This document shows positions 4,691-50,090 of a stretch of DNA of 64,000 nt, piece after piece. Where the stretch lies: contig NC_055991.1 in the NCBI RefSeq assembly GCF_018446385.1, positions 118,277,794-118,341,793 of the forward strand, in the 5' to 3' direction. Each line of letters begins with the position of its first letter. Positions within the stretch are counted from its first letter, which is position 1. This stretch comes from Zingiber officinale. Taxonomy: Eukaryota; Streptophyta; Magnoliopsida; Zingiberales; Zingiberaceae. The notes beneath the pieces were generated by a model. It worked only from the letters and a program-made list of their open reading frames with translations. It was not told the DNA's origin and made no database searches. Position numbers and translations under genes: made by a program.

Positions 4691-4695
4691 CCGCT

Positions 4696-8301: not shown

Positions 8302-10118
8302 TTAGGATTTCTTTCCTAGAGCTAAGCTGACTCGTAATGCCCGACCGTCTAATTCCTGCACAATTTGAAACGAAACATCATCATCAAGTTGAATCTTAGC
8401 TTAAGGATTGCCAAATGCATTGGTATTTCCTTTGATGTTAAAAGCTTGCTACTCAGAATCATGAAGTATTTAATGAGGATTACCATTCCGTTGAGAACTT
8501 CCAAGGCGTGTTCCATCTCTTCCTTAGTTGAATAGCAGACGAAGCCATAGCCCCGAGACCGACTTGTATCTCCGTCGTAAAGAACCCGTGCCCCAACCAC
8601 ATTTCCATGCTCCTGAAACACTTCAGTCAGGACCTCCGAGGTGACTGACCAAGAGAGGTTGCCAACGAAGAGCTTGTGCTCGGTTTCGGGGTACAATGGC
8701 TCTTTAGGCTTTGGCTTGTCGGCGAAGTTCACCTTCATTGTCCTGCCACCGAATTGCTGTAATAGGCAGCATAAGACACAGTTATCTTGATTTTGAACTG
8801 TTTAAGATCGATCAGTGTGATTTTGCTACAAATGTTAGGGCCTTACAGTTCCATCAAGATTGTTTATGACTTGTTCACAATCTTCCACAGAGCTCATGGT
8901 GACAAAAGCAAACCCTCTGCTTCTTCCAGTGTCCCTATCGTAAAGCACCTGAAAGCATGGTCCCAATGGTAAATCCCCCTGGTTAAGCAAAGGAGCAGAA
9001 TAGTTTGCTAAAAGGTTTCAAATTTGTGGTTTTGATTGTGTTTCTGAAACCGAACCGACTGTCGAACCTATTGATCCAACAGAATAACACCACTTTTGAA
9101 TCATACATTCAGGAAGATAAGTGACCTTGAGCCATATACATGAGGTTTTTCTACTTGTCCAACTAGATTGGATTCTCTTTCGGTTCGCGGTTAGCTGATT
9201 GAATTGATCGAATTGAAAGACACTATTTTCAAATTATAGATACCAAGAGATAGAGTGTGACAGTAATGTTCAGCCCTCATTTTGAACACAACAAAGATCT
9301 AAAGAAGCCATTGAGTTGATCCAGTTAGATTGGGTCAGCTTCCAGTTGATCGAAAGACCATCAAGACACTATTTTTCTTTTTTTCCAAGTCTGACTTTCA
9401 ATACAACAAGGATCAAAGATTATCCTAAAAACCATTTGTTAAGGACAATCTTCATTTCACTCTCCATAGAAAGACACTATGATGGCGTTATGTTCTGGTT
9501 GAACAAGAGCTGCATTTGCGCCTGAGAGAAATTCTGTTGGCCAAATGATCTCGATCACTGGCTAAAACGCAGTCTAGAATCGGATTCAAGAAGCGAATGT
9601 TTTTTTTTTCTTTGGAGAATGGGAAGAAATCATTGATGAAAACTAAGAACCGAAGAAGAAGGAAAAGGGAGGCCAACCTCGACCAGCTCGGGGCTGGCGT
9701 ACTCCTGGATGATGCCGGCCAGCTGCGCGCTGTCGCAGTTGTAAGGCATATTTCCAAAATAGAGTTTTGTGGTCTGAGCCACAGCGGCAGTATCGGCAGG
9801 GGAAAGAGAAGCCGCCTCCTCCAGCGGCTGTGCTTCTGCCTCCCCTGTTTCTTCCGCTGCTGCCTCCTCCTCCTCCTCCTCCTCTTGAACGGCCGCGGCG
9901 GTGGCCTCGTCCTGCGCCACCGCTGCCAAGGTCCTCCTCGGAAACCTGAAGCTCTGAGTATTGTAGAGGTGAGCTACGGAGAGTAGGTGCTGCGGGCGGC
10001 AGGCGCGAAGGGGGAGGGGAAGGCGGAGGAGGACGGCGTCAGAGGAGGGGAGCTTGGGGGGAAGTGCTCGTGAGGTGATGGTGGTGGAGAAGCACGAGCC
10101 GACTGAAGCAGAAGCCAT
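8302..10118 (-). CDS. Chloroplast RNA-binding protein with two RRMs, CP28A-type cpRNP
   Basis: Four exons on the minus strand, 10118-9678, 8948-8847, 8756-8484 and 8355-8302, join in phase with GT/AG borders to give 289 residues. Residues 1 to about 65 are rich in Ser, Arg and Leu and look like a plastid transit peptide. An acidic Glu/Ala stretch (about 70-105) follows, as is usual for chloroplast ribonucleoproteins. RRM1 carries RNP2 KLYFGNMPY (118-126) and RNP1 RGFAFVTM (158-165). RRM2 carries KLFVGNLSW (209-217) and RGYGFVCY (249-256). The linker [17 protein letters not shown] and the ending [11 protein letters not shown] fit the Arabidopsis At1g60000 (CP28A) type as I recall it. Such proteins bind plastid mRNAs and aid their stability, processing and editing. 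The exon ending in [10 protein letters not shown] is too short to stand out as a frame but is clear from the acceptor TTGTGCAG. Confidence 0.9.
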
Positions 10119-12777: not shown

Positions 12778-13629
12778 TCAAGAGTTCGACAATCTAGCAT
12801 CCAACTTTTCCGCCAAAAGACTTATCCATGCCTGATCAATATTGTTGAAGCCTCTTATGGTATCACCACCAATGATAATAATTCCTCTATCTCCAAGCGG
12901 TTGTAAAATGACTGACTGGGTATTACTTGGAAAGAAGGACAGCTCAGACCTTCCTGGATAAAGAGAAAGGTTTGCCAAATAGCTCTGCTTTCCAGATGAC
13001 ATCACATTCTTGCAAAGCGATCCTTTAAGCAGATCATGGACATCAACAGCCATCGCAACGGTATTATCATTTTCGGATACCGCTGCAGCCCCAATTTGGA
13101 GAAGGCAAACGCCTCCATAAACCACCACCAAGGATCTACAACAAGTGCTGGATGAAATGGAGTCCCACACCCATTGCAACTCACGAACGGCAAGATGCCC
13201 GATACCGGTATTCATACGCATACACTCCGCGCCACAAGGAATGACCGTAGCAACAGATTTCGGCCGAATCGACAACCACACAAAACCAGAAAGGAGGTTG
13301 ATCACCGCCAGCGAAAGGGCCAGAATGTCCGCTCTGGATTGTGAACTGGATGCGTCGGTGACAAAAGCGATGCCGGAAAAGACGCGGTTGAGGAGAACTG
13401 CGATCAAAGACAGACCACCGACGTAAATCGGCAAGCTGCGCACGATTCCGTCGTTGTTGGCGACCCAATCGCCCACCAAATCTCGTCTGGGTTTCAGATT
13501 GATGCGACTAAATTGGGAAGAAGAGAAAGAGGATCTAGCGAGAGGAAGCGATGATGGAGATCGAAGGGGGCGGAGAGGAAACGGAGACAGAGTAATCGCC
13601 GGAGATCTCAGAGTTGAAGAGGAGAACAT
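12778..13629 (-). CDS. CCB4: CCB4, cofactor assembly of complex C (cytochrome b6 haem c attachment)
   Basis: A single-exon minus-strand frame of 283 residues is counted from the ATG at 13629. CCB proteins of the thylakoid membrane attach haem c covalently to cytochrome b6 from the stromal side, and CCB4 works in a complex with CCB1-CCB3. The N-terminus (about 45 residues, MFSSSTLRSP...) is Ser/Pro/Arg-rich, like a plastid transit peptide. Two hydrophobic segments follow, around RSLPIYVGGLSLIAVLLNRV and ILALSLAVINLLSGFVWLSI. The conserved blocks DASSSQSRAD, SYLANLSLYPGRSEL, NTQSVILQPLGDRG and TIRGFNNIDQAWIS agree with plant CCB4 as remembered. The frame extends 36 codons upstream to 13737, but a TATAAATA box lies inside that extension, so the internal ATG is the likely start. 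Expression of cytochrome b6f depends on this factor. Confidence 0.88.
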   Translation of the reverse strand: MFSSSTLRSPAITLSPFPLRPLRSPSSLPLARSSFSSSQFSRINLKPRRDLVGDWVANNDGIVRSLPIYVGGLSLIAVLLNRVFSGIAFVTDASSSQSRADILALSLAVINLLSGFVWLSIRPKSVATVIPCGAECMRMNTGIGHLAVRELQWVWDSISSSTCCRSLVVVYGGVCLLQIGAAAVSENDNTVAMAVDVHDLLKGSLCKNVMSSGKQSYLANLSLYPGRSELSFFPSNTQSVILQPLGDRGIIIIGGDTIRGFNNIDQAWISLLAEKLDARLSNS

Positions 13630-13693
13630 CTTGAACGAGATAGAGCCAAGAGAGAAATGCAACGATAATGCGTGGGAGAGAGAAGGATCCAAG

Positions 13694-13701
13694 TATTTAT
13701 A
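13694..13701 (-). promoter_or_regulatory. TATA box of CCB4
   Basis: The minus strand reads TATAAATA here, 65 bases upstream of the chosen CCB4 ATG and inside a longer open frame. Its place fits a transcription start about 30 bases further on and decides in favour of the ATG at 13629. Confidence 0.6.
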
Positions 13702-13886
13702 TGGAGGAGCGTAAGGGTTTATAACGGGCCCTTCCATGGGCCAAAATTGGGCTTGAATACGGTGAACAATATCAATAGAAATTAAAAATGTTTATCTTGG
13801 GCTAATAATTATCAATGATATTTTTATTTTTATTTTTATTTTTATTCCATTTTATCTAATGAAGTTTAAAAAAAATACTTCACGGT

Positions 13887-13887
<1 letters not shown>

Positions 13888-13927
<40 letters not shown>

Positions 13928-14363
13928 TTCTTATGCTGCGGCTCGTTTGGTACAGTGTCGTGTGGTACAGTCCACGTCAGCCGAGCGCGTGAAACAAAAG
14001 AAACAAAGGCGCATGAAAAAAACAAAAAAACACAGGCAAAACCTAGCAAAAGTCATCTCCCTCGCCGAGCTCGGCGGCTGTCCCTCTTCGAAACCTGCCG
14101 CGACCTACCAGCCGTAACTCTCGCCGCCACGAGCAGAGCTCCCTTGCCAAGCTCTGCTCTCTCCCTCGCCGAGCTCTGCTCTCTCCCTCGCCGATCTCTC
14201 TCCCTCGTCGAGCTCTGCTCTCTCCTCTCCACGAGCCAGCCACCAGCCGCAACCCTCGCCGCCACGAGCAGAGCTCCCTCGTCGAACTAAGGATTACGAA
14301 GGGAGCTCTCATTTTCGAAGGTCAAAGGGCCACAGCCAAGAGCGCGGGGCGTGAGTTCAGGCA
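13888..14363 (+). mobile_element. Extra copy of the second MULE's left arm
   Basis: The block starts with (TA)n(GA)n, then AATTCTTATGCTGCGGCTCG, and ends GCGTGAGTTCAGGCA directly against the terminal inverted repeat of the large MULE. It is almost identical, in the same orientation, to 25607-26058, which is the left arm of the MULE at 25607-27714. It includes short degenerate repeats around CGCCGAGCTCTGCTCTCTCC. Alone it has only one arm. It is either a truncated MULE or a duplicate made when the large MULE became lodged here. Confidence 0.7.
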
Positions 14364-15100
14364 GTGAGGCTCTCCTGCGGTGTTTTTGGTGCGGTTTGGT
14401 GCGGCATGGGACAGCGAGGATGCCATGTCAAATGTGGTAAAGGGCATACGAAGCAATCTGCACCAAAAACACCGCAGGTGTTTAACCTCTCCAGAAAAAA
14501 AACCCTGGCGCTCGCCTCTCCTCTCTCGCCGAACCAGATATCTCTCGCTGCGATCTCCCTCGCTCGTTCCCTCGCCTCTCTCGCTGCAGCCGCTCACCAC
14601 TCGCTGCGATCTCCCTCGCTTGTTCCCTCCCTCTCTCGCCTGAAAACATTGTGTCGGGGCTCCCTCCCTCGCTGCGCCTTCCTCACCGGCCTCGCTGCGA
14701 TCTCCCCGCCGCATCTCCCTCTCTCGCCTAAAAACATTGCGTCAGGGGCTCCCTCCCTCGCCGCGCCTTCCTCACTGTCGCCTACCTCTCAACCGAAGAG
14801 AGCCCTAGCTTCTCCCCTGACTGGCTGCCGGTGGAAACGAGGTACCTTGCTACCAATCTGGATCATTAGCTGATCTTTTCTTCATACCCCTTGTTAATTT
14901 GCTACCAATCTGGAAATGAAGTACTTTGCTACCAATCTAGATCATTAGCTGATCTTTTCTTCATACCCCTTGTTAATTTGCTAAACAATGTCAGGTCATA
15001 GAATTTTGTCATGTTAGCAGGATATGCCTCTGCAAATGGTTTATGTAATTGTATCAGACAACTTAAGTTTATTGATAACAATATCAGGTTTAGAGTTTGT
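14364..15100 (+). repeat. Left terminal inverted repeat of the large MULE
   Basis: This matches the reverse complement of about 24870-25606 at well over 90% by eye. Within the first 115 bases a small fold-back is formed: CCTGCGGTGTTTTTGGTGC at 14376 pairs with TGCACCAAAAACACCGCAGG at 14458. The middle is a C/T-rich imperfect repeat of TCGCTGCGATCTCCCTCGC type. The inner end contains a duplicated ACCAATCTGGATCATTAGC block, and part of it recurs at about 15110-15365. Confidence 0.85.
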
Positions 15101-15483
15101 GATCTTTGCAATCTGGATCATTAGCTGATATTTTCTTCATAACCCTTGTTAATTTGCTACAATTACTTATTACCTTTAATTGATCAAGGTTAACTTCGTT
15201 TAGACCATGTTGGAGACTTATAATATTATTCATGATATGATGTATGCTAAACAATGATAGTTCATAGAATTTGGTCATGTTAGCAGGATATGCCTCTGCA
15301 AATGGTTTATGTAATTGTATCAGACAACTTAAGTTTATTGATAACAATATCAGGTTTAGAGTTTGTGATCCTTGTCAAGTTAATTGTAAAACTTAAGTTT
15401 GTTGTTTATTCTAAAATAAGATGTAGTATTTATTTATTTATCTATTGTCAAATATAATGCGAGGGCGCACAAAAATGTAAGAA

Positions 15484-17690
15484 AATAGAGTTGATGATCA
15501 AGAATTCATTTCCCAAGTTGCAGATGATCGAAAGCAAAAAATTGGAATGGAATTCCCATCACTAGATGATGCATATTCATTTTATAACCAATATGCACGA
15601 GAAGCGGAATTTAGTTCAAGGAATAGCACGAGTAGGAAAAACAAGATGACAAATGAAGTGACATGGAAACAAATTGTTTGATTTAAAGAAGGGCATACAG
15701 ATCTAATGCGGAACAAAAAACATCCAAACCCTAATCAATAAACAAAGGAAAGAGCACGTGGCACAGTTAGAACAGGTTGTAAGTCAAATATTGCATATGT
15801 CAAGAAACAGACGGGGCCTAATTGGGTTGTCTGTAACTTCATAGAAACCCATAATCATCCGCTCTCAACCCCATCAAAGGTGCATTTGCTACGCTCACAT
15901 CGTAGTGTTTCGGTAGCTAAGAAAGCATTGACAAAATAGTTTTCAGAAGCCAATGTACCAACTTGTCAACAAATGCGTTTATCGGAGATAGAGTATGGAG
16001 GCCCTGAGTTGGTAGGTTGCACAGAAAAAGATATTAGAAATTTTGAGAGAAATCTTAGGGATGAGCAAAAGGGTATTGATGCCGAAACACTGATTGAGTT
16101 TTTTACCTCTGAGCAAGAAAAGAATTCAGCTTTTTTCTTTGATTACGAGACTGATTCAGATAAGAAATTTAGTAGGTGCTTTTGGGCTGATCATGTATCA
16201 AGAAGGGCATATAGTGTATTCGGTGATGCAGTTGTATTTGATACTATATATAACACCAATAGATATGACTTGATTTTGGCACCATTTGTAGGAGTTAACC
16301 ATCATCATCAGACAATTATTTTTGGCTGCGGGTTTCTTAGTGATGAGAAAACTGAGTTTTTTGTTTGGCTGCTTACAAAGTTCTTAGAAGTCATGACTAA
16401 AGGTGCACCAAACATTATCATCACTGATCAAGATCCTGCTATGACAAAAGCTATTGCACAGGTTTTCTCTCAAACAGTGCATCGATATTGTTTGTGGCAC
16501 ATATTGAACGAATTCCCAAATAAATTAGACCCTTTGACTTTTCGAAACCACTATCACAGCATAAAGAATGTCATTACAAATTCTACAACACCTGATGATT
16601 TTGAGAAGTCATGGGAAAAGACTATCAAGTGTGCTAACTTAGAGAAAAATGATTGGTTATCCTTGATGTATGAATTACGACATAGATGGGTTCCAGTATA
16701 TTTTAGTCATGTGTTTTCAGTAGGAATGTCAAGTAGTCAAAGATCTGAAGGTTCACATGCATTTTTCAAGAAATATGTTTCAAATAAGAACTCATTAATG
16801 GATTTTATCACCCGTTTTAATAAAGCACTGAGACACAAAAGACACAATGAGTTAGTTGCAGACCATATTGATATGAATGAGCATCCCAAGGTTAAGACAA
16901 CCTGGCCAATGGAAACTCAAATGGTTAAGATATACACAAAAAAGAAATGATTGGAGTTTCAAAGTGAAATGACCGAGAGTCATAGTTATTATGTGCAACA
17001 GACATTTACAGGAGTTGCATCAGCAGTTTGCCATGTGATGAAATTTCAAAGTTCTTCTTCCTCAAAATCAAGAGTGCTCACACATGACAAACAAAGGGAC
17101 TACATATCGTGTAGCTACACAAAATTTGAGTTTGAGGGCATTCCATGCAGACACATGTTAGCTTTTTTCGTATTAACCAAGTGTTTCTTTTGCCTAATAC
17201 GTATATACTCAAACGATGGACACGAGATGCAAAAGTTGGAGCAATATACGCTTTAAGAGAGCAAAATGTCAATGATGAGCCTGATTTAGAAAGGTATTTG
17301 ATATCGAGGCACTCGAGGTTATCCTATAAAGTTTCAGTATTAGTTGATGATGCATCTTTGAGTAATGAGAGGGCAATCTTCTTGGATGAACAATTCGATT
17401 ATATCTACAACAAAATTCAAGAGATGTCCATTAGTACAACATGCAGTGATAGAAGTCAAAGAAAGAAATCCATTGATGAGGGTCTTGGTATTATTGATCC
17501 TTCTACAATAAGAACTAAGGGATGTGGGAAGAGATTAAAATCATCAAAGGAGAAATCAACCTCAAATTATAGGCTTTGTCATGGATGCAGACATCGAGGA
17601 GTGTCACATGATAAGCGTAACTGTCCTAATTTGCAGCAAGAGTATGTGTCAATTATTTTTATATTTTTATTATATTTTATTATATTTTGT
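15484..17690 (+). pseudogene. FAR1-type Mutator transposase, decayed
   Basis: The reading frame contains all parts of a FAR1/Jittery-type MULE transposase. An N-terminal FAR1 DNA-binding region (about 15530-15900, with FPSLDDAYSFYNQYA and ETHNHPLS) is followed by the MULE catalytic domain. Likely catalytic acids are the Asp in VVFDTIYNTN, the first Asp of IITDQDPAM and the Glu of QRSEGSHAFF. A SWIM zinc finger with GIPCRHMLAFF (about 17130-17165) and a zinc knuckle CHGCRHRGVSHDKRNC (about 17578-17625) follow. In-frame stops occur at 15679, 15739, 15937 and 16948, and the frame shifts within about 17165-17185, so it is inactive. The longest open piece, 15973-16947, covers most of the catalytic domain. 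Host FAR1/FHY3 genes share this architecture, but position between TIRs marks it as the element's own gene. Confidence 0.85.
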
Positions 17691-17890
17691 ATATAACAAT
17701 ATGTCAATTATCAGATCAATTGAAGATAATAATCATATCAGTCTTAACGACACATATGAACCTGATTTGGGATCTATAGCTGGTACTATCAAAGTTTTAA
17801 TTTATTAAATTATAGTGGTTTATTGTTTATTGAATAAATAAAATTAATAAATTGTAATTTTTATTGTAGGTTCTAACAACATGCTTTAGG

Positions 17891-17990
17891 ATATTGACAG
17901 ATGCATCATTAGCTTATGGATTTGAAAAGAAGAATAATTAACAGGATGCATCTGTATTTGATTTGGGAGGTGGAACCTTTGATGTTTTAG
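17891..17990 (+). pseudogene. Captured HSP70 fragment (plastid DnaK type)
   Basis: DASLAYGFEKKNN, a stop, then QDASVFDLGGGTFDV follows the HSP70 ATPase-domain block NEPTAASLAYGFEKKNN...VFDLGGGTFDVS. The pairing of GFEKKNN with VFDLGGGTFDV points to the plastid/bacterial DnaK branch, not the cytosolic one. The stop is the TAA at 17939-17941. The piece ends at a splice-donor-like GTAACA at about 17991 and is preceded by a TTATTGTAG acceptor-like site at about 17862. It is a gene fragment carried inside the MULE and cannot make a chaperone. Confidence 0.7.
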
Positions 17991-18291
17991 GTAACAGGAT
18001 GCATTAGCTTCTTACTGATTTCATGTCATTTGCTTCTTTCTGTTTAAGAATTCTATCCTTTTTGTATATACTTAACTTAATGTGTGTTTTCTTTCAGTGA
18101 ATCCAATGCTTGAGAAGATTTGACTTGGATTTGGTTTCGATGTGGTTTATTCCCTTTGCTCCAGTGTTAAAGAAGCTATTAAAAACTTTTTTTGTTTCAT
18201 TATATTGTAATTAAAGAATTGTATTTTGATTTCAAAGATTGGTTTAATGTCGTGTTTTTAGTTTACTGAGACTGAAAGAGTAACTGGAAAT

Positions 18292-19200
18292 TGTAGGTCC
18301 CTTTGGAGGCCGACAAGAGGGGAGGGGTGAATTGCCCTACAAAAATAAAACCAAAAACCCTTCTCGGATATTCAACTAACTTAAAAGAACTTGTAATTAA
18401 AACGGCAGAGACTAATTAAGACAGAAAGTAGACACAGAGGAATTACTTGGTTTGCAATCAGAGGATTGCTAATCCAAGGCAAAAAAGGCACACTAATTGA
18501 TTCTCCTCTGAGCGGAGTAGCCTCTTACAGCGTTGAAAACACAGAAAGAAATAACACAAATGAAAGCACTGGATTACAAGTAGTTGTTCTTAATTTATAA
18601 TTGCTTCTGGACCAAGGCTATATTTATAGTCTTGGTCCGGGCGCCTGGAAGGGTTCCGGGCGCCCTGGGGGGATAAATTTTATCCCCAACGGTCGGATCG
18701 AGTCAAAACTCGATCCTGTTGAAAAGTCGATTCCGGGCACCCGGAAGGGTTCCGAGCGCCCCGGTCGGTTCCGGGCGCCTGGAAAGGTTCCGGGCGCCCG
18801 GAGCCCTAAGGTCAACATAAATTGACTTTTCGACTCCGGTTCAGCTCGTCTCGATCCAGCTCATCTCGGTCCGGGTCTGTTCGCTCCGGCTCCGTTTGCT
18901 TGGGTGATCTCGGCCTTCCAAAATAGGGCTCACCCGAACCCATGTTCTGGCCTTCTCCTCGAGCAGCCTTCCTTCCCGGTTTCTCGTCCCTCGAACGCCG
19001 CGACGCTTCTTCTCGTCCGGGTACTCTTCCATGTCCTCGTCCCTGACGCACCGAGCCCGTCGCCTCTCCCCTGCCGTCCTTCTCGTTAGCCGCGTCCTAC
19101 CTGTGTTCCTAAGCTCCTGCACACTTAGACACAAGGGTTAAACAACGCAGGACCTAGCTTAACTTGTTTGATCACATCAAAACACCTCGGGGTTCCAACA
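18292..19200 (-). repeat. 3' LTR of the gag-only copia element
   Basis: The LTR is 909 bp and, on the element's strand, starts TGTTGGAACCCCGAGG and ends CCTACA. It contains a cluster of GC-rich near-palindromic motifs around GGGCGCCCGGAAGGGTTCC (about 18640-18800). The partner LTR is 21426-22357. Confidence 0.85.
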
Positions 19201-19920
19201 ATCTTCCCTTTTTTGATGTGAGCAACACAAGTTAAGCTAGGGAGAAACAGATGCAATAAAAATAATTTATTTGCAATTAAGTCCAAAGATATTTCATAAA
19301 AAAAAATTTATATACCTCCCCCTAGACTTAACATTCTTCTCCCCCTTTGAACACATTAAAAATAAGGGTTCTTTAAACAAGTCTAAGGTAAACAAAATTT
19401 TTAAGTGAATTTTCATAAAAAAAAAAAAAATTCTAAGCCAATTAATATTAATTTGTAAGGCAATTAATATTAATAAAAAAAAATTCTAACTTAAAAAATT
19501 TTAAGTTATTTTTCATAAAAGATTTCTAAGGTAATTTTCAAAGGAAAAATGTATATGACAATATTCATAGAAAAATTTCTAAGTTAATTAAAAAATATCT
19601 AAGTCAATAATTTTCAGAAATTTTCTAAGTCAAAAAAAAATTATTTTCCAAAAAAAATTATTATTATTATTATTATTTTAATTATAAATTAATTTTAAAT
19701 ATTCTCGAACACAAATTGAATAACTCTTTTAAAGCATTAGGTAAATTAAATTAATGCTTTTTCAGTTAGTCAATTAAACTTTTCATTTCGATACTTGGCT
19801 TCCAGGTAGTGGCGAGGCACTAGGCCTTCTTGGTTATTGGAGCAACAACCACTTCCTTAGACAAAGCCTCATAATGAAATTAGTCGTTTAATTTCCTTGC
19901 TGAAAATGCTAAGTCTAATT

Positions 19921-21369
19921 TTAGATTAAACAGGTTTTTGGAACCCAGTAGAGGTTCCTACCTACAGGGTTAACCAAGTATTTCCTAGGTACATAGATTT
20001 TTGATATATTTCTAATTTGACTTTGATGAAATCTATAATACCAATTTAAACCTCTATAATTTCTAAAAGTAGAAATATTTGAACTTATATATTTTTTCAA
20101 TCTTTCTATTTCTTCTTTTAGTTTTTCATTTTTAATTTTAAAATTTTCAAAATCCTCTATAAGACATGATTTTGTCAAAATTCTCTTTGTTTCTAAAATT
20201 TCATTTTCTAATTTGGCATTTTTATTTTCTAATTTATACATGGATTTAGTCATAGCTTTGATACCGGAGTAAAGCTGATCAGGGGGTAAGAGGCATACCT
20301 CACTTACAATGTCGGACTTGAAGCCTGAATCTCCCTTTGCTTCACTGCTTTCATCCGAGGTCGCTCCCCCTTCATCGATGCTAGGTTCTGATATACTTTG
20401 TCTATCATAGCTTGCCATTAGTGCTATCCCGGCATATTCTTGAGCTTCTGATTCGGATGAAGAAGTGTCGTCCCAAGTTGCTTTTAGGTTGTGTTTCTTG
20501 GGAGACTTCCTTTTGACCTTTTTGAGTTCTGGGCAGTCTTCTCTTAGGTGTCCCTCCTTCTGACACTGGTAGCACCGCACCTTTCTTCCACCTTTTTGAT
20601 TCTTTTTATTCTGCATTCTAAATTTATTAGATCTAAATTTTTTTTTAAAATTTCTTACCATGTATGCTTCTTGATCGTCTTCGGAGTCTGACTCGAGTTC
20701 ATCCTTCTGGGTTGCGTTCAGCGCCATAGTCTGGGTTGTATCTTTTGTCGTTCCTGCATACCTGGTTTCATGCAATTCAAGAGTAGAAAACAACTCTTCT
20801 AAAGTACTTACCTCCAGGTCTTTTGAGATGAAGTAGGCGTCGACGATTGATGTCCACTCCGGAGTTTTTGGAAACGCGTTGAGCGCGTAGCGTATAGTGT
20901 CCCGGTTTGTTACCGTTTCACCAAGGTTTTCGAGACCAGTAACTAGTTCTTTTACCTTCGCATGTAGACCAGCTACTTTCTCACCTCTCTCCAAACGGAG
21001 GTTCATCAGTTTGTTGCGGAGGATGTCCCTTCTAGCGAGCTTTGCTTCGGACGTGCCTTCGTGGAGTTCCAAGAACTTCTCCCAAAGTTCTTTAGCAGAT
21101 AAGTAGTTTCCGATGCGGTTGACCTCTTGAGGCGGTAACACGCTCAGCAGGTGATGTTCCGCACGACTGTTTGCTACCAACTCATTCTGCTCCTTCTTTG
21201 TCCAATCGCTCTCTTCTTTTTCTTTTCCATCTTTATCTATTGGAGCTACAAAATCATATTTCATAATAAACCGAATTTCAAAATCTGTTTTTAGAAATAC
21301 CTCCATACGACGCTTCCAGTCTGCGAAGTTCCCCTCGAATTTTGGTGGAACAATGCTCGGTCTGGCCAT
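19921..21369 (-). CDS. Gag protein of the copia-type element
   Basis: The 482-residue frame has a copia gag (UBN2-type) domain over about residues 10-205, with NFADWKRRMEVFL near the start and AKELWEKFLELHEG (92-105). A single CCHC zinc knuckle CYQCQKEGHLREDC spans 266-279, preceded by a Lys/Arg-rich stretch. An acidic serine-rich region and a Lys/Glu coiled-coil-like segment (about 385-440) follow. It is the nucleocapsid-type structural protein of the element. The frame is open throughout, which fits recent insertion or selection on gag in trans-mobilised families. Confidence 0.85.
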   Translation of the reverse strand: MARPSIVPPKFEGNFADWKRRMEVFLKTDFEIRFIMKYDFVAPIDKDGKEKEESDWTKKEQNELVANSRAEHHLLSVLPPQEVNRIGNYLSAKELWEKFLELHEGTSEAKLARRDILRNKLMNLRLERGEKVAGLHAKVKELVTGLENLGETVTNRDTIRYALNAFPKTPEWTSIVDAYFISKDLEVSTLEELFSTLELHETRYAGTTKDTTQTMALNATQKDELESDSEDDQEAYMVRNFKKKFRSNKFRMQNKKNQKGGRKVRCYQCQKEGHLREDCPELKKVKRKSPKKHNLKATWDDTSSSESEAQEYAGIALMASYDRQSISEPSIDEGGATSDESSEAKGDSGFKSDIVSEVCLLPPDQLYSGIKAMTKSMYKLENKNAKLENEILETKRILTKSCLIEDFENFKIKNEKLKEEIERLKKYISSNISTFRNYRGLNWYYRFHQSQIRNISKIYVPRKYLVNPVGRNLYWVPKTCLI

Positions 21370-21425
21370 CTTTGTTGCTTCGATCGGCGGTTAGTCCTCC
21401 TGAAGCGCCTTGCTCTGATACCCCT

Positions 21426-22357
21426 TGTAGGTCCCTTTGGAGACCGGCAAGAGGGGAGGGGTGAATTGCCCTACAAAAATAAAACCAAAAATCCTTCTCG
21501 GATATTCAACTAACTTAAAAGAACTTGTAATTAAAACGGCAGAGACTAATTAAGACAGAAAGTAGACACAGAGGAATTACTTGGTTTGCAATCAGAGGAT
21601 TGCTAATCCAAGGCAAAGAAGGCGCACTAATTGATTCTCCTCTGGGCGGAGTAGCCTCTTACAGCGTTGAAAGCACAGAAAGAAATAACACAAATGAAAG
21701 CACTGGATTACAAGTAGTTGTTCTTAATTTATAATTGCTTCTGGACCAAGACTATATTTATAGTCTTGGTCCGGGCGCCTGGAAGGGTTCCGGGCGCCCT
21801 GGGGGGGATAAATTTTATCCCCCAACGGTCGGATCGAGTCAAAACTCGATCCTGTTGAAAAGTCGATTTCGGGCGCCCGGAAGGGTTCCGGGCGCCCCGG
21901 TCGGTTCCGGGCGCCTGGAAAGGTTCCGGGTGCCCGGAGCCCTAAGGTCAACATAAATTGACTTTTCGACTCCGGTTCAGCTCGTCTCGATCCAGCTCAT
22001 CTCGGTCCGGGTATGTTCGCTCCGGCTCCGTTTGCTTGGGTGATCTCGGCCTTCCGAAATAGGGCTCACCCGAACCCATGTTCCGGCCTTCTCCTCGAGC
22101 AGCCTTTCTTCCCGGTTTCTCGTCCCTCGAACGCCGCGCACGTTCTTCTCGTCCGCCGGTGTACTCTTCCGCGGTCACCTCGTCCCTCGGACGCACCGAG
22201 CCCGTCGGCTCTCTCCCCGTGCCGTCCTTCTCGTTAGCCGCGTCTTCCGCTCGACTTCCTGTGTTCCTAAGCAGAGCACACTTAGACACAAGGGTTAAAC
22301 AACGCAGGACCTAGCTTAACTTGTTTGATCACATCAAAACACCTCGGGGTTCCAACA
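21426..22357 (-). repeat. 5' LTR of the gag-only copia element
   Basis: The LTR is 932 bp, nearly identical to 18292-19200 and in the same orientation. The primer-binding site lies immediately beyond it on the minus strand (about 21410-21424). The same GC-rich palindromic cluster is at about 21774-21940. Confidence 0.85.
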
Positions 22358-22499
22358 GAAATAAAACTGATTTAATGTCTTGTATCTAATTTCTTATGTT
22401 TTGATGTCATCATTGTTATTTTTTATGATATTGTAGTGGCTATCTGCTATATAAATAAGAATGAGTGCTCTATATAAATTCAATAGTGGGGTGGGGTGG

Positions 22500-23003
22500 G
22501 GTGGCCCTGGCCTGCGCCGCCGTCTTCCTTACTAGGAGGGTGCTTCTACCCCTACCTTCAGTTCTTCAACGGCGGCAATGGCGGCGGCGGCGGCTCATTG
22601 GGACCAGAATGGTTCTACTTCGCAGACCAAGAACAGCAGCAAGCCCCAAGAACAGCAACGATCTAGCTCAAAAGATAGTAAAGCAGGTTTTGATCATTTT
22701 GTCACATATTAAAAAAGTATATATGTTTAAATGATTTTTGCAATCTGAATCACAGGTGGAGTACCAGTTCAGCGATACCAATCTGGTTGCAAATGATTTC
22801 CTGATGAAGATTATGAACAAAGATCCAGAAGGATATGGTGAATATATACATTATGATTTTTCAGTTATATATTATTTCAATTGGTCTAATTAAATGATCA
22901 TATATAATTTTCTTCTGTTCTATTCTTGATTCAGTGCCAATGTCAGTGGTTGCCTCTTGGAAAAAGATAAAAGCTCTTGATGTCAATAACTACACGCTCA
23001 TTA
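22500..23003 (+). pseudogene. Captured LARP6-like La-motif gene fragment
   Basis: Three exon-like pieces with correct GT/AG borders are kept. The first ends DLAQKIVKQ at 22686. The second (22756-22837) encodes VEYQFSDTNLVANDFLMKI then MNKDPEGY. The third starts at 22935 and encodes VPMSVVASWKKIKALDVNN. Together they are the N-terminal half of a La motif (Q-V-E-Y-x-FSD-x-NL...) as in plant LARP6 proteins. Upstream, a Gly-rich frame (FFNGGNGGGGGSLGPEWFYF) looks like the LARP6 N-terminus but is in another frame, so the piece is broken. The La motif stops abruptly near 23000, where unrelated repeat sequence begins. Retained introns show DNA-level capture. Confidence 0.78.
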
Positions 23004-23007
23004 CATT

Positions 23008-23341
23008 TTTGACTTGGCTTTGGTTTCGATGTGGTTATTCTCTTTGCTCCAGTGTTAAAGAAGCTATTAAAATCTTTTTTTGTTTCATTATATTATAATT
23101 AAAGAATTGTATTTTGATTTCAAAGACTGGTTTAATGTCGTGTTTTTAGTTTACTGAGACTTGATTTCAAAGACTGGTTTAATGTCGTGTTTTTAGTTTA
23201 CTGAGACTGAAAGAGTAACTGGAAATAGCACTGATTTAATGTCTTGTATCTAATTTCTTGTGGTTTGATGCCATCATTGTTATTTTTTATGATATTGTAG
23301 TGGCTCTCTGCTATATAAATAAGAATGAGTGCTCTATATAA
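23008..23341 (+). repeat. Second copy of a direct repeat that flanks the LARP6 fragment
   Basis: This block matches 18119-18291 joined to 22358-22467, that is, the first copy before the copia insertion split it. Shared landmarks are GGTTTCGATGTGGTT at the start and GAATGAGTGCTCTATATAAA at the end. The second copy contains an extra inner duplication of about 53 bp (GATTTCAAAGACTGGTTTAA twice, about 23115-23210). Confidence 0.8.
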
Positions 23342-24158
23342 ATGAGGTAACAATAAGAATGAGATGTAGTGGCTCTCTGCTGAAGAACAGAAGTGGAAAA
23401 GCCAGATGCAATCACCATGAGCAACTAGGAAAACTACAGACTTAGTAATGAACAAATTGCCTATGTCTGCAAATTGTTGTCTTGAAATTTATTGGAGAAT
23501 GAACCAAGGTGGCCTTTATGCAGGCCTTTGTTTCGTGATGTATGCTGAGTCCTATGATTTGCCTCTTCTTAATGCCTGACTTCAAAATACAGAATGCTCT
23601 GCTTTTAGGCACAGAATGCTCTGCTTTTACCAGAATGCTCTACTGGTAAAATTGGATGGTTATCTTATGCTACAATCACATGGTAAACACATTGATTCCT
23701 GGAACGTGGAAGAGGTTGTGATTCATGGGGATTTAGGATGTTGCTAATCTGGATGGTTATCGAAGAATGGAATCTAGTTAATCAGCCAACAACCTGCTAA
23801 TGATGTGCATTAAGTTTAGTCAGAATCCATTCGAAATAAATATTTTAAACCATGAATTACATAGTACATAGTGAAAAAAATCTCAAATGAGACAAGATTC
23901 ACTTAAACACCAACAATTTCATTTCCTTCAACATGCATCAAGAATTTCACTAAATAGCATAACAATAATCAAGATATTTCAACTTTAACTCAGATAAATT
24001 TTATCTATAACACAAAGAACACCATTATCATACCACAATTATAATATCAACATTATACAACAGTATTTAATGTTTCCAACACCAACTAACAAACTAATTT
24101 TGCATCCAGAATTACAAACATTTAGCCAGTTACATTACAACACGAACATTACCTAACA
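23342..24158. other. Non-coding interior of the large MULE
   Basis: There is no supported gene. A threefold CAGAATGCTCTGC-type microduplication sits at about 23590-23645. The remainder is AT-rich and unremarkable. Confidence 0.4.
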
Positions 24159-24485
24159 CTAACTAACAAGATGAACTAACAACACAATCGAGATTATGTC
24201 TAAGAGAATCAAGTTCACCATCAATGATATCCAAATGAATTTCGGTATTTGGATTATTGCCAGATTATCTCCATGAAAAGCATTGTGTTCACTTTCAATA
24301 TTATCAAATGAACTAGTATTGGTCATCACCCACTTTTGCCATCCATGTTGTCTACACCTGTAATACTGTCTTCCAGGATTCTTGGTTGATCTAGAAATAC
24401 ACACCAATGTTCTTTGTCCGTAGTCCCTACATGTTACAGGTTGAAATCTTGTGTTTTCGATGATGCTAAAACTTGATGATGCCAT
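24159..24485 (-). CDS. Small GRF-type zinc-finger-like protein inside the MULE
   Basis: The 108-residue frame begins MASSSFSIIENTRF. The stretch CRDYGQRTLVCISRSTKNPG followed by RQYYRCRQHGWQKWV resembles the plant GRF zinc finger (CxCG...S.T.KNPGR.FY.C.....F..W). The first CxC pair is reduced to C...Y, and the expected Cys near the end is replaced by His-Gly, so metal binding is doubtful. The last 45 residues are hydrophobic and unlike any domain I know. Short GRF-finger genes occur as passengers or accessory genes in plant DNA transposons and as host genes. I cannot say which this is. An intron may follow residue 60. Confidence 0.5.
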   Translation of the reverse strand: MASSSFSIIENTRFQPVTCRDYGQRTLVCISRSTKNPGRQYYRCRQHGWQKWVMTNTSSFDNIESEHNAFHGDNLAIIQIPKFIWISLMVNLILLDIISIVLLVHLVS

Positions 24486-24869
24486 GAAATAACAACCTAA
24501 TAATCAAATTTACATTACTTAGATTAAAAAAATATATAATATTCTGTATAATTTATAACATTCTGCATAAAACATTGTAGCATAAAACATGAACTATATT
24601 CAAGTAGTCATAAAACCAATGAAACATGTAACTCAGGAAGTTCATTATAACTTCTTTATCCCAACTTATTGAAAAGTGAGCAGTTTCATTGAATGCCAAT
24701 TGGAATAAATGTCAATATTCACTTTCCAACACAGTTAGCTAATTGCAGATGGAGTTGGAAAGTTTTTTACCTCCAACTTAGCAAAAGTAAACAGTTGCAT
24801 ATTCCAACAAACTCTAAAAAAACATGCACCAACAGCAGACAATGCTTCTAAACTTGATATCATTTCCAA

Positions 24870-25606
24870 CAAACTCTAAACCTGATATATCAATAAACTT
24901 AAGTTGTCTAAACCTGATACAATTCCAACAAACTCTAAACCTGATATTGTTATCAATAAACTTAAGTTGTTTGATACAATTACATAAACCATTTGCAGAG
25001 GCATATCCTGCTAACATGACAAAATTCTATGACCTAACATTGTTTAGCAAATTAACAAGGGGTATGAAGAAAAGATCAGCTAATGATCCAGATTGGTAGC
25101 AAAGTACCTCGTTTCCAGATTGGTAGCAAATTAACAAGGGGTATGAAAAAAAGATCAGCTAATGATCCAGATTGGTAGCAAGGTACCTCGTTTCCACCGG
25201 TAGCCGGTCAGGGGAGAAGCTAGGGCTCTCTTCGGTTGAGAGGTAGGCGACGGTGAGGAAGGCACAGCGAGGGAGGGTGCCCCGACGCAGTGTTTTCAAG
25301 CGAGAGAGGGAGATGCGGCAGGGACATCGCAGCGAGGCCGGTGAGGAAGGCGCAACGAGGGAGGGAGCCTCGACGCAATGTTTTCAGGTGAGAGAGGGAG
25401 GGAACGAGCAAGGGAGATCGCAGCGAGAGATATCTGGTTCGGTGATAGAGGAGAGGCGAGCGCTAGGGTTTTTTTCTGAAGAGGTTAAACACCTACGGTG
25501 TTTTTGGTGCAGATTGCTTCGTATGCCCTTTCCCGCATTTGACGTGGCATCCTCGCTGTCCCATGCCGCTCCAAACCGCACCAAAAACACCGCAGGAGAG
25601 CCTCAC
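24870..25606 (-). repeat. Right terminal inverted repeat of the large MULE
   Basis: This is the inverted counterpart of 14364-15100, ending CCGCAGGAGAGCCTCAC at 25606. The (TA)(GA) start of the second MULE follows at once. The fold-back formed by the two CACCAAAAACACCG copies is also kept here (about 25494-25595). Confidence 0.85.
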
Positions 25607-27678
25607 TATATATATATAGAGAGAGAGAGAGAGAGAATTCTTATGCTGCGGCTCGTTTGGTGCGGTATCGTGCAGTGCAGTCCACGTCAGCCGAGCACGT
25701 GAAACAAAAGAAACAAAGGCGCGTGAAAAAAACAAAAAAAATGCAGGCAAAACCTAGCAAAAGTCATCTCCCTATCCAAGTTCGACGGTTGTCCCTCTTC
25801 GAAACCTGCCGCGACCCACCAGCCGCAACCCTCGCCACCACGAGCAGAGCTCCCTCGCCGAGCTCTGCTCTCTCCCTCGCCGAGCTTTGCTCTCTCCCTC
25901 ACCGAGCTCTGCTCTCTCCTCTCCGCGAGCCAGCCACCAGCCGCAACCCTTGCCGCCACGAGCAGAGCTCCCTCGCCGAACTAAGGATTACGAAAGGAGC
26001 TCTCATTTTCGAAGGTCGAAGGGCCACAGCCAAGAGCGCGGGGCGTGAGTTCAGGCAGGCATGCACATACATAAATACGACATACGATAGGTTGAGTATA
26101 CAGTGCTGTTACGTTCGTTGATATCTTTGTTTCTTGCTCGTTTCGATCTACTGTGAAGTGGATTTTTAAAGTGTTTTGAAGTAGTAAAACAAAAAAAAGG
26201 AGGAGAACGTGCGATCGAGAGAGGCCATTAGCTTGCAAGAGTTGTTGATGGTTGCTTCTTTCATTTGATTTTTCATGTTTGTTGTCATCTCTTTCATTCC
26301 TTGTACAAATCTATGTTGAAGGAGCACAAAAGTGTGTTGTTGATCTGTTCGAGTACCTGCTCATTTGTTTGTTTGTTTTGTTTTCCAACAACACACAAGC
26401 AGAGCAATCATTTTCTCAGTTCTATACACTTTGTTGTTTGAAAATTTAAGAAAGAGTCACTTCAATCCTTAGTTTTGATGATCGTTAGTTGCCCCTTCGT
26501 AATCCTTAGTTCCTCTTCTTCTATTATTCCCTATGAGCTGCTGGCAGGGCGGCGCCATTTGTGAAGGAGCAAGTTGATTGCATAGCTGGTGGTGCTTGGG
26601 GTTTGTTTATGGAAATATGAAGTTAAATAGGAAGGGGTTTTCAAAGAGTGTATCGAAAGAAAAGGCAGCAACTCCCAAATGTCATCTTATTCTACCCAAC
26701 TCGCAAGCAAGCATTCAATCAAAACCAGTGTTTTCTAGCTTTTTTTTAGCCTGGCAAAAGAACAATAAAAAATAACAGGATTCGACTAAAGAATACATCG
26801 ACGATAGTAAGACAGAAATTTTAAAATTCATAAATAAGTGGTTCAGTCATTTCCTTACAATAGTCATGAGGAAATCGGAAGCTATCCCTTGTACAAAGCC
26901 ATATATATGCTTTTCTTGCAACGATAAACTTCAAGGAGCTTCCTGAAGGCGGTACACAGTGATCTCTTGCTGCTTGAAATATCGTCGATCCTCCTCGTCC
27001 ACAAGAACGAGATTCAAGAAATATTTAACGTTGAACTTGTTGTTGATGTTGCGATATGTAGGTGTTAACTCATAGGGGCTCAGAAACAATCTTATAGGGA
27101 TCGATTCACCTGATGAAAAAAACGTAAAGGTTACAAAAAGATAAATTAAAAACAAACATTTGTAGCAAATATATGTAGTAACACTTTTTTTCTTTAAAAC
27201 AAGAAGAAAAAAATCTTCCAGAATAATATATGATTGGTTGACAAAGAAGGTTAGTACAAAACATGCATCTTCAATTAAGTTTGGTGGTGAGGGTTGCGGC
27301 TCGGTGAGGGAGCTCTGCTCGTGGCGGCGAGGGTTGCGGCTCGGTGAGGGAGCTCTGCTCGTGGCGGCGAGGGTTGCGGCTGGTGGCTGGCTCGCGGAGA
27401 GGAGAGAGTAGAGCTCGATGAGGGAGAGAGCTCGCGAGGGAGAGAGCAGAGCTCGGCGAGGGAGCTCTGCTCGTGGCGGCGAGGGTTGCGGCTGGTGGGT
27501 CGCAGCAGGTTTCGAAGAGGGACAGTCGCCGAGCTCGACAAGGGAGATGACTTTTGCTAGGTTTTGCCTGGGTTTTTTTTTGTTTTTTTCACGCATCTTT
27601 GTTTCTTTTGTTTCACGCGCTCAGCTGACGTGGACTGCACCGCACGACACCACACCAAACGAGCCGCAGCATAAGAAT

Positions 27679-27714
<36 letters not shown>
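25607..27714 (+). mobile_element. Second MULE (Pack-MULE type) carrying a VPS26 exon
   Basis: Inverted arms of about 430-450 bp, 25607-26058 and 27268-27714, each end in (TA)n(GA)n next to AATTCTTATGCTGCGGCTCG and contain the CGAGCTCTGCTC repeat. No transposase is present. The 1.2-kb interior holds the terminal exon of VPS26 on the minus strand and unassigned sequence. Non-autonomous MULEs with host exons are Pack-MULEs. A target duplication cannot be read because the ends merge into TA microsatellite. Helitron or hAT origin is less likely given the long inverted arms. Confidence 0.65.
26931..27109 (-). pseudogene. Captured last exon of VPS26 (retromer subunit)
   Basis: After the acceptor TTTCATCAG the frame reads GESIPIRLFLSPYELTPTYR, NINNKFNVKYFLNLVLVDEE and DRRYFKQQEITVYRLQEAP, then stop. 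This is the highly conserved C-terminal arrestin-like end of VPS26, the retromer subunit that binds VPS35 in endosomal sorting. No upstream VPS26 exons were found in the 150 bases before the MULE arm starts. The exon is intact at protein level, suggesting a recent capture. It has no start codon of its own in frame within the exon. Confidence 0.82.
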
Positions 27715-28900
27715 ATCTTGTTTAAGAGGTAAGACTCTCAAATCGCATGTCAATCCATATAAGCATCAAGAGTTTAATCCTCTGTAGTTGAGGTAAACTC
27801 CAAATCAAACCCTCTCCTTCGCCACAAGACCAACACCAAATGGGCACATGACACCCAGTGTGGTGGACACACATCTCTCATGCATGCCATCAAAATACAA
27901 CCCCTCTCATGACATTACACGTTCATTAGCCGATACTTGGACTTTGCATTCACACTTACATCAAGCAATTACATTCACTCACATCAAGCACACCACTTAA
28001 AACGTACAAAGACAACCGCCATGACCCTTGCACAGTCATCCACGGATGCAAACCAAGACCGCCAAGCCATCCTCGGACAGTAAGACACAGTGAACTCCAA
28101 GCAGCAACATCAGCAACCTTGGACAGACGAAGATCACACGGACAAAACTCATCAAAATCGAACATCACTTACAAAGCATCCAGCCATAGATCGTCTCCCC
28201 ACTTTTAGCAAGTGGTCAGCTATCAACGAATTTATCGTGTCTTTACCGAGAGCCATTTGCTGCAGACTAGATAGATCCTTATGGTGGATCTATGAACCCT
28301 CTTGGGCTTTTTCGCAAAGCCCTCGCCATCAACAAATTTGGCGCTGTCCTAACCGTGAGCCGTTTGCTGCAGACTAAATAGATTATTATGGTGGATCTAT
28401 TCACCATCTTGGGCTTTTTCACAAAGCCTCAGCCATCAACAAATTTGACGATGTCTTTACCGCGAGTCGTTTGCTGCAGACTAGATAGATCAATTATGAT
28501 GGATCTATTCACCATCCTCTCCCATGCCTCCCAACTCACATCCTCTCACCATATGGCATGTGAACAAAATACAAACTCTCACCACACATAGTAGGCTCCC
28601 TCACTATACAAGTTCTTCTCACCACCAATCACAAGACACACAAGCCCACATTTTGACTTGCATGCACACACCCAAGTCCACATCTTGATTTGCATGTACA
28701 CACACAAGTCCACAATTGCATCACACTGACACAAAGAAACACCGTGATGCTTACAAAAATTCAAACACCCACAAAGCACTCAAAACATGGAACCAATTCC
28801 AACAAATGGACCTAAATCAAAGCACGGGCAACAATTTTAGCAATCGGCTATCAGTCAAAACACAGATAGCAATTCCAATAAATGGACAGCAATCATCATG
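27715..28900. other. Non-coding stretch, probable LINE 3' region
   Basis: There are no supported genes. It may be the 3' untranslated region of the minus-strand LINE that follows, but I found no oligo-T stretch to mark the LINE's end. A 107-bp tandem repeat (28211-28520) lies in it, and repeated CACACAAGTCCACA-type words lie at 28630-28720. Confidence 0.4.
28211..28520. repeat. Tandem repeat, period 107 bp, about three copies
   Basis: The words TTTGCTGCAGACTAGATAGA and GGTGGATCTATTCACCATC recur with steps of 107 bp (CGTTTGCTGCAGACT-type anchors at 28251, 28358 and 28465). The three copies differ at several sites. Confidence 0.8.
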
Positions 28901-30364: not shown

Positions 30365-31153
30365 TTACACATTGAGGGAGATTGAACAAGAAACCATAGT
30401 TACACATTCTCTAATCCATCCATAATATCGTTGGAGAAAACTAAAACTAACAAGTGCCTCTATAAGAAATTCCCAATCCACCGTGTCAAATGCTTTCTTC
30501 AAATCAACCTTGATCATGCACCTTGGCGATATTCTTTTTCGAGCATATTTCCGTAGGAGTTCTTGAGTCAAATTAATATTATCACCTATCGATCTTCCTT
30601 GCACAAACGCCACTTGAGCCGGATCCAATAAGAATCCCAAAATCGAAGCTAATCGACTTGCCAAGATCTTGGATATTACCTTGTAGAAAACATTGCAGCA
30701 TGAGATATGCCGATAATTCGATGCCCCCGGGGCTTGATCCGCCTTTGGCACGAAGGTGGTCAATGTATGATTCAATTGATTAAGCAATTTCCCTTCTTGA
30801 AGGAACTCTTGAACTGTTGCCACAAAATCTGAACCTACTATATTCCATGATGAAGTGAAAAATTTTGTCCCATAGTTATCCGGACCTGATGCCTTGTCAC
30901 ATCCATTGTCATATAGGGCTTCTTTGATCTCATCCTCACCCACCAGCCTTGTCAACCCTTCTGATTGGGTTTCATTTAGCTTCCTTCCAGGGATACTACT
31001 GTTGTCTATAGGGCTGCATGTTTTAGTTTTGCTAAACAAGTCATGAAAGAAACTTACAAATTCCTCTGCCATTTCACCAATGCTTGATGTTTGCTCCCAA
31101 TCTCTTTTGGTGAGCGTAATGATAGCATTCCTCTTGTTATTCCTCTTCACCAC
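30365..31153 (-). pseudogene. LINE ORF2 reverse transcriptase, N-terminal half
   Basis: The 262-residue open piece contains GCDKASGPDNYGTKFF, LNHTLTTFVPKADQAPGASN, FYKVISKILASRL, DPAQVAFVQGRSIGDNI and CMIKVDLKKAFDTVDWEFL, the ordered RT blocks of plant L1 elements. The KAFDTVDWEF block holds the first catalytic Asp. The catalytic YADD block lies further on (about 30140-30160) and has its Tyr replaced by a stop. Confidence 0.85.
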
Positions 31154-31293
31154 ATCATTAAAGAATTTAGTGCATTTGTCATATCTCTTTAGGTACGTAT
31201 TCTTTTCCCTTTATTGGTAAAAGTGATTTTTCGTATCCGCAAAAAGTGTGGCTTGTCGTCGGACATGTATATACTCCGTAGGGGCAGCCCCTC

Positions 31294-31429
31294 TGTCACG
31301 CCCCAGACGAGTCCCTGCTAGACAAAAATCCGATAGCATCTCTCCTGTATCGGTGACAATCTAAAGCATACATACAACCACAAGTATATATCAGCCACAC
31401 ACGGCTGGAAAATATAGACAACCACGCAG

Positions 31430-31527
<98 letters not shown>

Positions 31528-49392: not shown

Positions 49393-50090
49393 TTTGACTC
49401 TTCAAACCAACTAATCATGAGACGTTGAACTCAATCTTATGAAAATTTTTTAATTGCTACTAAAATAAAATAAATTATGAAGAGCTTATAGAAACACATC
49501 TAGGTGATCAATATTTTTATACTCACTTCTCAGGGACGCAAAATCTCCTCATGCAAAAAATATCTTTTGGAACCTAGAAATAGGATCTTGATGATCTCAA
49601 ATTTCATTTTACCCAGTCGATTATCGAATATTTCACTTAACTTTTTACGATCAAGGTGAATATCAGTTTATCCTCAAAAGTTTTCAGACGTTTTCATTTT
49701 AAACCTACAAAGATGAAAGATGGTTTGAGAATAATATTACTTGGGTGACATTTGAAATACATCTAGCATTTACAGGCTTTTAAAATGCCCTTGAGGCTTA
49801 ATTAATACCAAATACTTCTAAAATACTACTAAATAAATTAGATGATAATTTAAAATAATAAAATAGGTTTGATCTCAGATAGAAGCATTTTGATAATAAA
49901 ATAAATTTTTTAGAACATTTTCTCATTAAAAAACTTGAAGTGTAATGAAAAATTAAATAACATAGGCGATATTTTAATATTTTAAATTATTTGCAAGGTG
50001 AAGTGAATATTAAATAAATATTGGGGCAAAGTGATAATGTTTTTCCCAAATCCGCCGCATTGAGTTGGGTCGATCCGTTCTCGTGGTAGA
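49393..50090. other. Upstream flank of NDUFA13
   Basis: AT-rich intergenic DNA turns GC-rich at about 50045, where the 5' leader of the next gene begins. No clear TATA box was chosen and no other feature was found. Confidence 0.4.

Follow-up and report, generated by a model that had tools for sequence, protein, structure and literature searches.

Organization of the locus

The 64,000-nucleotide stretch of Zingiber officinale DNA analyzed here (NC_055991.1, positions 118,277,794 to 118,341,793; hereafter the window) carries an array of Mutator-like elements (MULEs). Its largest component, which we call M, is a coding MULE that holds a broken transposase gene together with captured fragments of two host genes, HSP70 and LARP6, and it abuts a smaller element, S. 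An earlier note, made from the letters alone, had described one pair of terminal inverted repeats (TIRs) that encloses a FAR1-type transposase together with HSP70 and LARP6 La-motif pieces, and this build is confirmed by alignment, by Pfam and by similarly built relatives elsewhere in the host genome. Beyond that note, the locus also holds a nested Copia-type retroelement with long terminal repeats (LTRs) and a target-site duplication (TSD), a 290-bp duplication around the LARP6 fragment, an antisense zf-GRF-like open reading frame (ORF), and S itself, which is an abutting Pack-MULE. The features of the array, in window coordinates, are as follows.

13888..13905, no strand: (TA)9, left edge of the array
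13906..14363, + strand: S-1, a truncated copy of S fused to the left end of M
14364..25606, + strand: element M, a coding MULE (basis: inverted repeats, transposase, same-build relatives in the host genome)
14364..15100, + strand: left TIR of M (31 differences in 679 gap-free bases relative to the right TIR)
15481..17696, + strand: defective FAR1/Jittery-type transposase with four in-frame stops plus a frame change (Pfam FAR1 and MULE; translation)
17897..18040, + strand: HSP70 fragment, an exon portion of about 85 bp, probably followed by intron sequence (Pfam, Protein Data Bank (PDB), relatives, candidate donors)
18119..18290, + strand: 290-bp direct duplication, copy 1, left part (right part at 22358-22479, beyond the retroelement)
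18292..22357, - strand: non-autonomous Copia-type LTR retroelement whose only domains are gag and zinc knuckle (TSD GAAAT; LTRs 18292-19200 and 21426-22357)
22480..22513, + strand: junction filler of 34 bp (no good match in donor or element)
22514..23003, + strand: LARP6 fragment, parts of three exons plus two introns (donor alignment, Pfam La)
23008..23343, + strand: 290-bp direct duplication, copy 2, with an extra 47-bp tandem repeat (Copia target site unoccupied)
24159..24485, - strand: zf-GRF-like ORF, antisense to the transposase and near the right TIR (Pfam GRF 0.001)
24928..25606, - strand: right TIR of M
25607..25618, no strand: (TA)6 between M and S
25607..27714, no strand: element S with its (TA)n, a Pack-MULE with TIRs of about 370 bp, abutting M
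26656..27271, - strand: VPS26 fragment within S (Pfam 6.4e-16; PDB 2.9e-17)
27697..27714, no strand: (TA)9, right edge of the array

M spans 11,243 bp, or about 7.2 kb once the nested retroelement (about 4.1 kb) is subtracted. It has the long TIRs that characterize MULEs, at about 680-740 bp; the alignment that pairs 14363-15100 with 25607-24928 has 738 columns and an identity of 86.7% with gaps counted, and base-level comparison fits ends at 14364 and 25606. An 18-bp inverted repeat is present inside the start of each TIR, so that the ends have a foldback form; the left one (CTGCGGTGTTTTTGGTGC, 14375-14477) lies in the first 115 bp of its TIR. M also carries the expected pairing of a MULE transposase domain with a FAR1-type DNA-binding domain. 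When stops are read through, Pfam finds FAR1 (PF03101, 8e-15) and MULE (PF10551, 1.6e-27) in the same frame of the + strand, and a SWIM domain at 0.0028 only, which is under the curated cut-off. The frame at 15481-17256 has four internal stops, and the C-terminal part shifts to another frame at 17136-17696, such that translation bears out the earlier description of the gene as a relic with four in-frame stops and a frameshift. A PDB search with the transposase gave no match at 0.1, and a viral-contig scan gave none either.

The two ends of M in the window have no 9-bp TSD, and thus the 8-11 bp TSD usual for MULEs is missing here. The ends of its relatives sit in (TA)n, where a TSD cannot be distinguished, and microsatellite-targeted MULEs are an accepted exception to the TSD rule (PMC5907723).

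A transposase-bearing family that acquired LARP6 once

We searched the host assembly (3.09 Gb, 211 contigs) with a 437-base TIR query and obtained at least 48 matches, with 40 of 55 candidates scored. The comparisons below concern 11 elements, namely the window copy and ten other transposase-bearing members. A copy on C19 (L047), which is 95% identical to the C20 copy over 6.4 kb and is probably its allele, was kept out of these counts and of the tree. One LARP6 copy on C2 (L014 and L016; 193.01 and 192.86 Mb) lies in halves about 154 kb apart and in opposite orientation, with the break within LARP6. We infer that an inversion of about 154 kb split this copy, and it was counted as one element.

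The transposase and HSP70 regions are present in all 11 elements. Six of them (C6, C4, C22, C15 twice, and C2) carry LARP6 and have the 290-bp segment twice; the other five (C8 twice, C2:109 Mb, C20 and C12) lack LARP6 and have the segment once. In the transposase tree, the six carriers fall on one side of a 100/100 branch that recurs in 100% of 200 bootstrap trees. LARP6 therefore has a single origin in this family. The order of parts inside M recurs in sister elements on other chromosomes. The genome check that the earlier note called for, in which other copies with the same TIRs would hold or lack the captured pieces, thus came out in its favor for LARP6; indeed, the outcome it named as damaging, that no other copy would have transposase and fragments between such TIRs, did not occur.

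The junctions of the LARP6 fragment are similarly consistent. At the right edge, the junction is identical in the five copies read at base level (window, C4, C22, C15a and C15b; the split C2 copy was not among them). At the left edge, the 34-bp filler is present in the window, C4 and C22 and is not in the donor. The two 290-bp copies that flank LARP6 differ at 11 of 289 gap-free bases. Because copy 2 has a single GAAAT, the duplication preceded insertion of the Copia-type element, which measures 4,066 bp, has a perfect GAAAT TSD, and has LTRs that differ at 30 of 908 gap-free bases. This element is gag-only, without pol, and its LTRs contain short CCGGGCGCC-rich repeats.

The La motif in the fragment scores 8.9e-09 in Pfam as a single exon, just under the cut-off, and 3.9e-19 when the three exons are spliced on paper. 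Searching the genome with the piece gave 15 matches, which correspond to the six elements (several in pieces), a C10/C9 pair at 86-87% and a C4/C3 pair at 73%. The closest are C10:140010506-140011028 (87%) and C9:151430668-151431190 (86%), where the LARP6 sequence runs on past both breakpoints with introns present. On this sequence evidence, the intron-bearing C10/C9 gene is taken as the donor of the LARP6 piece.

Two LARP6-bearing members at C15:52963363-52982528 (L011-L013) are inverted relative to each other, with a gap of about 90 bp between them, and both show one more internal duplication, which involves LARP6 and segment sequence.

The HSP70 fragment is shorter. Its likeness to HSP70 covers about 30 amino acids at 17897-17990, with a Pfam score of 3e-05 (above the curated cut-off) and a best PDB match of 2.4e-04. 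In the better LARP6-less copies, the piece reads uninterrupted and reaches 3.1e-08 in Pfam, and in LARP6 carriers a short HSP70 stretch has been swapped for a copy of nearby element sequence. Indeed, this stretch (17897-18010 and its relatives) repeatedly took up short copies of nearby sequence (around ACAGGATGCATTAGC), one in the LARP6 carriers and a different one in C8:18.57 Mb and C20, and it looks prone to templated repair. The piece is presumably of plastid type, and the reading at C2:89 Mb agrees. One pair of candidate donors (C2:89.2/C1:80.3 Mb) matches at 83% over 134 query bases and extends past the exon, and the other (C16:20.3/C15:23.4 Mb) matches at 92-93% over 84-86 bases. The parental genes that the earlier note expected have thus been located for LARP6, on C10/C9, and for HSP70 as candidates on C1/C2 and C15/C16. 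The two captures are not one event, and HSP70 is older than LARP6.

A further shared component is the zf-GRF-like region, which is present in all 11 elements, though partial in the split C2 copy. Its GRF domain scores 0.001 in the window and 4e-05 in the better-kept C4 copy, both under the curated Pfam cut-off. A comparison of the ORF across 10 elements (with the split C2 copy and C19 left out) finds the frame and a hydrophobic C-terminal end kept in at least the window, C4, C22, C15a and C8:18.57 Mb. Instead of being cargo, this ORF could belong to the MULE as an accessory gene. A literature search for the GRF zinc finger with transposon and Mutator retrieved nothing, and an Rfam scan of 13800-28600 gave no match.

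Transposase condition after the LARP6 capture

The damage to the transposase differs from copy to copy. Using the codons upstream of the frame change, and leaving out C15b and C2, we obtained dN/dS values of 0.53, 0.69, 0.49 and 0.35 in four pairs of LARP6 carriers, and a neutral test in the same pairs gave uncorrected p values of 0.043, 0.165, 0.060 and 0.0036. The smallest of these belongs to the C22-C15a pair, in which replacement changes fall below the neutral level (20 to 14), and the window-C22 pair gives 0.043. These sequence comparisons favor some constraint on the transposase after the LARP6 capture, although they are not decisive.

Microsatellite targeting and the array with S

A TA-type microsatellite adjoins 19 of the 21 element ends examined, where for truncated ends the base beside the first match was taken and for C12 the stretch 25-45 bp past the last match. 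One of the two exceptions is a truncated end on C15, and the other is the left end of the window copy. Copies thus lie within a microsatellite rather than between TSDs, as in (TA)n-targeted MULEs. The ends of S in other copies (an exact pattern; four ends at three loci) also run into (TA)n.

To the right of M, after the (TA)6, lies a complete 2.1-kb copy of S. No transposase domain was found in its six frames, and its interior recurs at 92% identity or better in six places in the genome, one of them in pieces. With TIRs, a host fragment, no transposase and several copies, S has every feature of a Pack-MULE. Its VPS26 fragment is 73% identical to the VPS26 gene at C5:26472399, and the C5/C6 gene pair matches at 72-73%; this pair may not be the direct donor.

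In arrays of the MuTAnT/SaTar type, the members are not expected to interrupt one another. M and S adjoin via the (TA)6, but the S-1 copy at the left end of M is truncated, through insertion or later deletion. S-1 is 89.3% identical to S-2, the sequence flush with the right end of M, and 90.1, 88.7 and 88.9% identical to S copies on other chromosomes; moreover, S-1, S-2 and S-3 are equidistant, with 13, 11 and 13 singletons. Since S-1 shows no special affinity to S-2 over S copies elsewhere, a fusion by deletion, of the kind that occurs in SaTar arrays, probably created the S-1/M junction.

The C5 allele joins window position 13914 to 27702 over a (TA)n-type site, with flank identities of 97.5% and 93.7%. 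This allele is an empty (TA)n site, and therefore the complete array of about 13.8 kb is hemizygous. The pairing of chromosomes C5/C6, C9/C10 and C19/C20 would follow from their paired hits.

A motif, CTGCGG-TTTGGTGCGGT, aligns near both ends of M and S. When the left end of M was compared with S-2 and with S-3, 3 in 2000 shuffles reached the observed score in each case; with the right end, 15 and 19 did. Against S-1, the corresponding counts rose to 125 for the left end and 355 for the right end, and a pair of unrelated window tiles outscored the motif alignment (33 vs 32). A transposase-binding motif common to M and S is only suggestive on these alignments.

Surroundings of the array

A CCB2/CCB4-type gene exon lies at 12778-13791 (Pfam 1.5e-56), with candidate start codons about 150-280 bp from the array. 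Just beyond the other edge is a tandem repeat with a 107-bp unit (28216-28516), and at 31429-31528 lies a long (TA)n stretch that forms an inverted repeat of itself, at the very place where the C5 haplotype differs. The window also contains these coding stretches.

4606-6153: diphthamide synthesis protein
8352-8801: RRM protein
30368-31210: reverse transcriptase
50064-50510: GRIM-19
55500-56045: Myb

The array is a haplotype-specific structural variant located about 0.15-0.3 kb upstream of a CCB4-type gene.

A proposed history and its rivals

We consider it very probable that M descends from a MULE that gained HSP70, later gained LARP6 once by break repair, spread, joined a (TA)n array and finally took in a Copia-type element. 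The ancestor would have had a FAR1/Jittery-type transposase and an antisense zf-GRF-like ORF, with the short plastid-type HSP70 piece already aboard. In one lineage, a break may have occurred just 3' of the 290-bp internal stretch, and its repair would have copied about 490 bp of a LARP6 gene, introns included. If synthesis then re-entered the element about 290 bp upstream, LARP6 would come to lie between two direct copies. One copy of the segment in elements without LARP6, and two around LARP6 in those with it, is the pattern expected from break repair with template switching, and a gap-filling type of model has been discussed for animal Pack-TIRs (PMC8277862). The 34-bp filler at the left junction fits error-prone joining. 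The enlarged element would then have been copied to at least five loci. At the window locus, it presumably joined an unrelated Pack-MULE in an array of MULEs linked by (TA)n, and the gag-only Copia element would have inserted into M after that. Because elements with and without LARP6 alike have the transposase, the lineage that took up LARP6 had not yet lost it, and the earlier proposal of capture in a once-autonomous lineage holds to that extent. Its corollary, that the capture machinery acted in cis, goes beyond the evidence, since the scar looks like break repair, which any break could start and which needs no element transposase.

Several observations weigh against this history. No microsatellite adjoins M at its left end in the window. 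The 34-bp filler, which matches neither donor nor element well, implies a repair path that was not fully templated. The HSP70 donor could be either the longer 83% match or one of the shorter 92-93% matches, and no HSP70-less relative exists among the 11 elements. Furthermore, none of the 11 transposase regions is open throughout (the longest open stretch is 554 amino acids), so the intact transposase expected of an autonomous element is missing from this set and autonomy after capture is an inference, as the copies may instead have been mobilized by some intact helper at another locus. In a more ambitious account, the family was a self-mobilizing vehicle for capture, with successive repair captures of two unrelated host fragments, a transposase under selection, spread into (TA)n at several loci, stacking with an unrelated Pack-MULE and autonomy never lost, and we see the case for it as evenly balanced. 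Its counterpart, that LARP6 entered a MULE whose transposase was already dead and that an intact relative moved all copies in trans, draws on the same absence of an open transposase and on the two of four carrier pairs (window-C4 and C22-C4) that do not reject neutral change at 0.05. We regard it as unlikely, though deserving of serious attention, given that C22-C15a and window-C22 point to constraint after capture and that the copy-specific damage suggests that each copy decayed on its own once inserted.

LARP6 and the second 290-bp copy could also stem from recombination between two family members, one of them beside LARP6 sequence. Family members can indeed be close neighbors, as on C15, and exchange between them is possible; however, the single common right junction, the intact TIRs at both ends and the filler fit end-joining and copying better, and none of the 15 LARP6 matches includes an element with LARP6 at its outer edge, which makes this origin improbable. 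On each side, M is bounded without a gap by one of two direct repeats, S-1 and S-2, as would be expected of a 460-bp TSD created by insertion of M. We rejected this idea on the singleton counts and the S-1 identities, since the three S sequences are equidistant and S-1 is about as close to S copies elsewhere; relatives of M also sit in (TA)n without such duplications, and the chance that it is correct seems very slight. The notion of an assembly misjoin or a chance cluster of unrelated repeats gains some plausibility from the repeat-dense region, but it is scarcely credible when the sisters match M in internal order, the TSD of the retroelement is perfect and both array edges align with the C5 allele. 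For M, a misjoin was rejected on the sister-copy order and the C5 alignment, and the concern about one raised in the earlier note is thereby answered by matching sister copies and a haplotype without the array.

Significance and comparison with known systems

The literature still treats the way in which host DNA enters MULEs as unclear (PMC8277862, PMC3310237). With a donor, elements from before and after capture and a scar that can be polarized by relatives, a gap-repair or template-switch model becomes testable at the level of single bases. M also shows that an element can capture host DNA without losing its transposase. The unusual feature is the combination in one genome of a stepwise double capture, with its pre-capture relatives, donor and scar, and microsatellite targeting; we make no claim of priority.

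Pack-MULEs are defined by host fragments between MULE TIRs (PMC3310237, PMC3903597), and S fits this definition fully. M likewise has host fragments between its TIRs but retains a transposase gene, with the transposase region present in 11 of 11 elements, in departure from the strict requirement that none be present. M is therefore a coding MULE with captured fragments and not a Pack-MULE in the strict sense. The earlier note contrasted M with Pack-MULEs on this ground but overstated the contrast, because transposase-bearing MULEs with host fragments have already been reported (PMC2528002). The kind is already known, Jittery-like members included, and KAONASHI elements are another example of transposase-bearing MULEs with host fragments (PMC13317346).

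Among known systems, AutoMuTAnT/MuTAnT of Medicago truncatula resembles M in its Jittery-like transposase, its (TA)n insertion, its coding element beside short relatives and its foldback-like ends (PMC4486113). AutoMuTAnT is 4.9 kb long with an intact ORF, and the available text mentions no captured host genes, whereas M is larger, decayed and carries HSP70 and LARP6. The SaTar arrays and Autonomous SaTar-MULEs of guayule and rice likewise place unrelated MULEs end to end via microsatellites, mostly without a TSD, and they include defective autonomous MULEs, occasional deletion fusions and an empty (TA)n in another genotype (PMC5907723). However, the SaTars of that article are small and mostly non-Pack, with capture unmentioned in the available part of it, whereas the ginger array joins a Pack-MULE to a coding element that holds captured genes. 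The MuDR-like and Jittery-like MULEs of grapevine with transduplicated ULP or cellulose synthase sequence, like M, combine transposase and host fragment and keep introns (PMC2528002). M differs from these in having gained two unrelated fragments in succession, and in that the pre-capture state, with one copy of the segment, is available for comparison.

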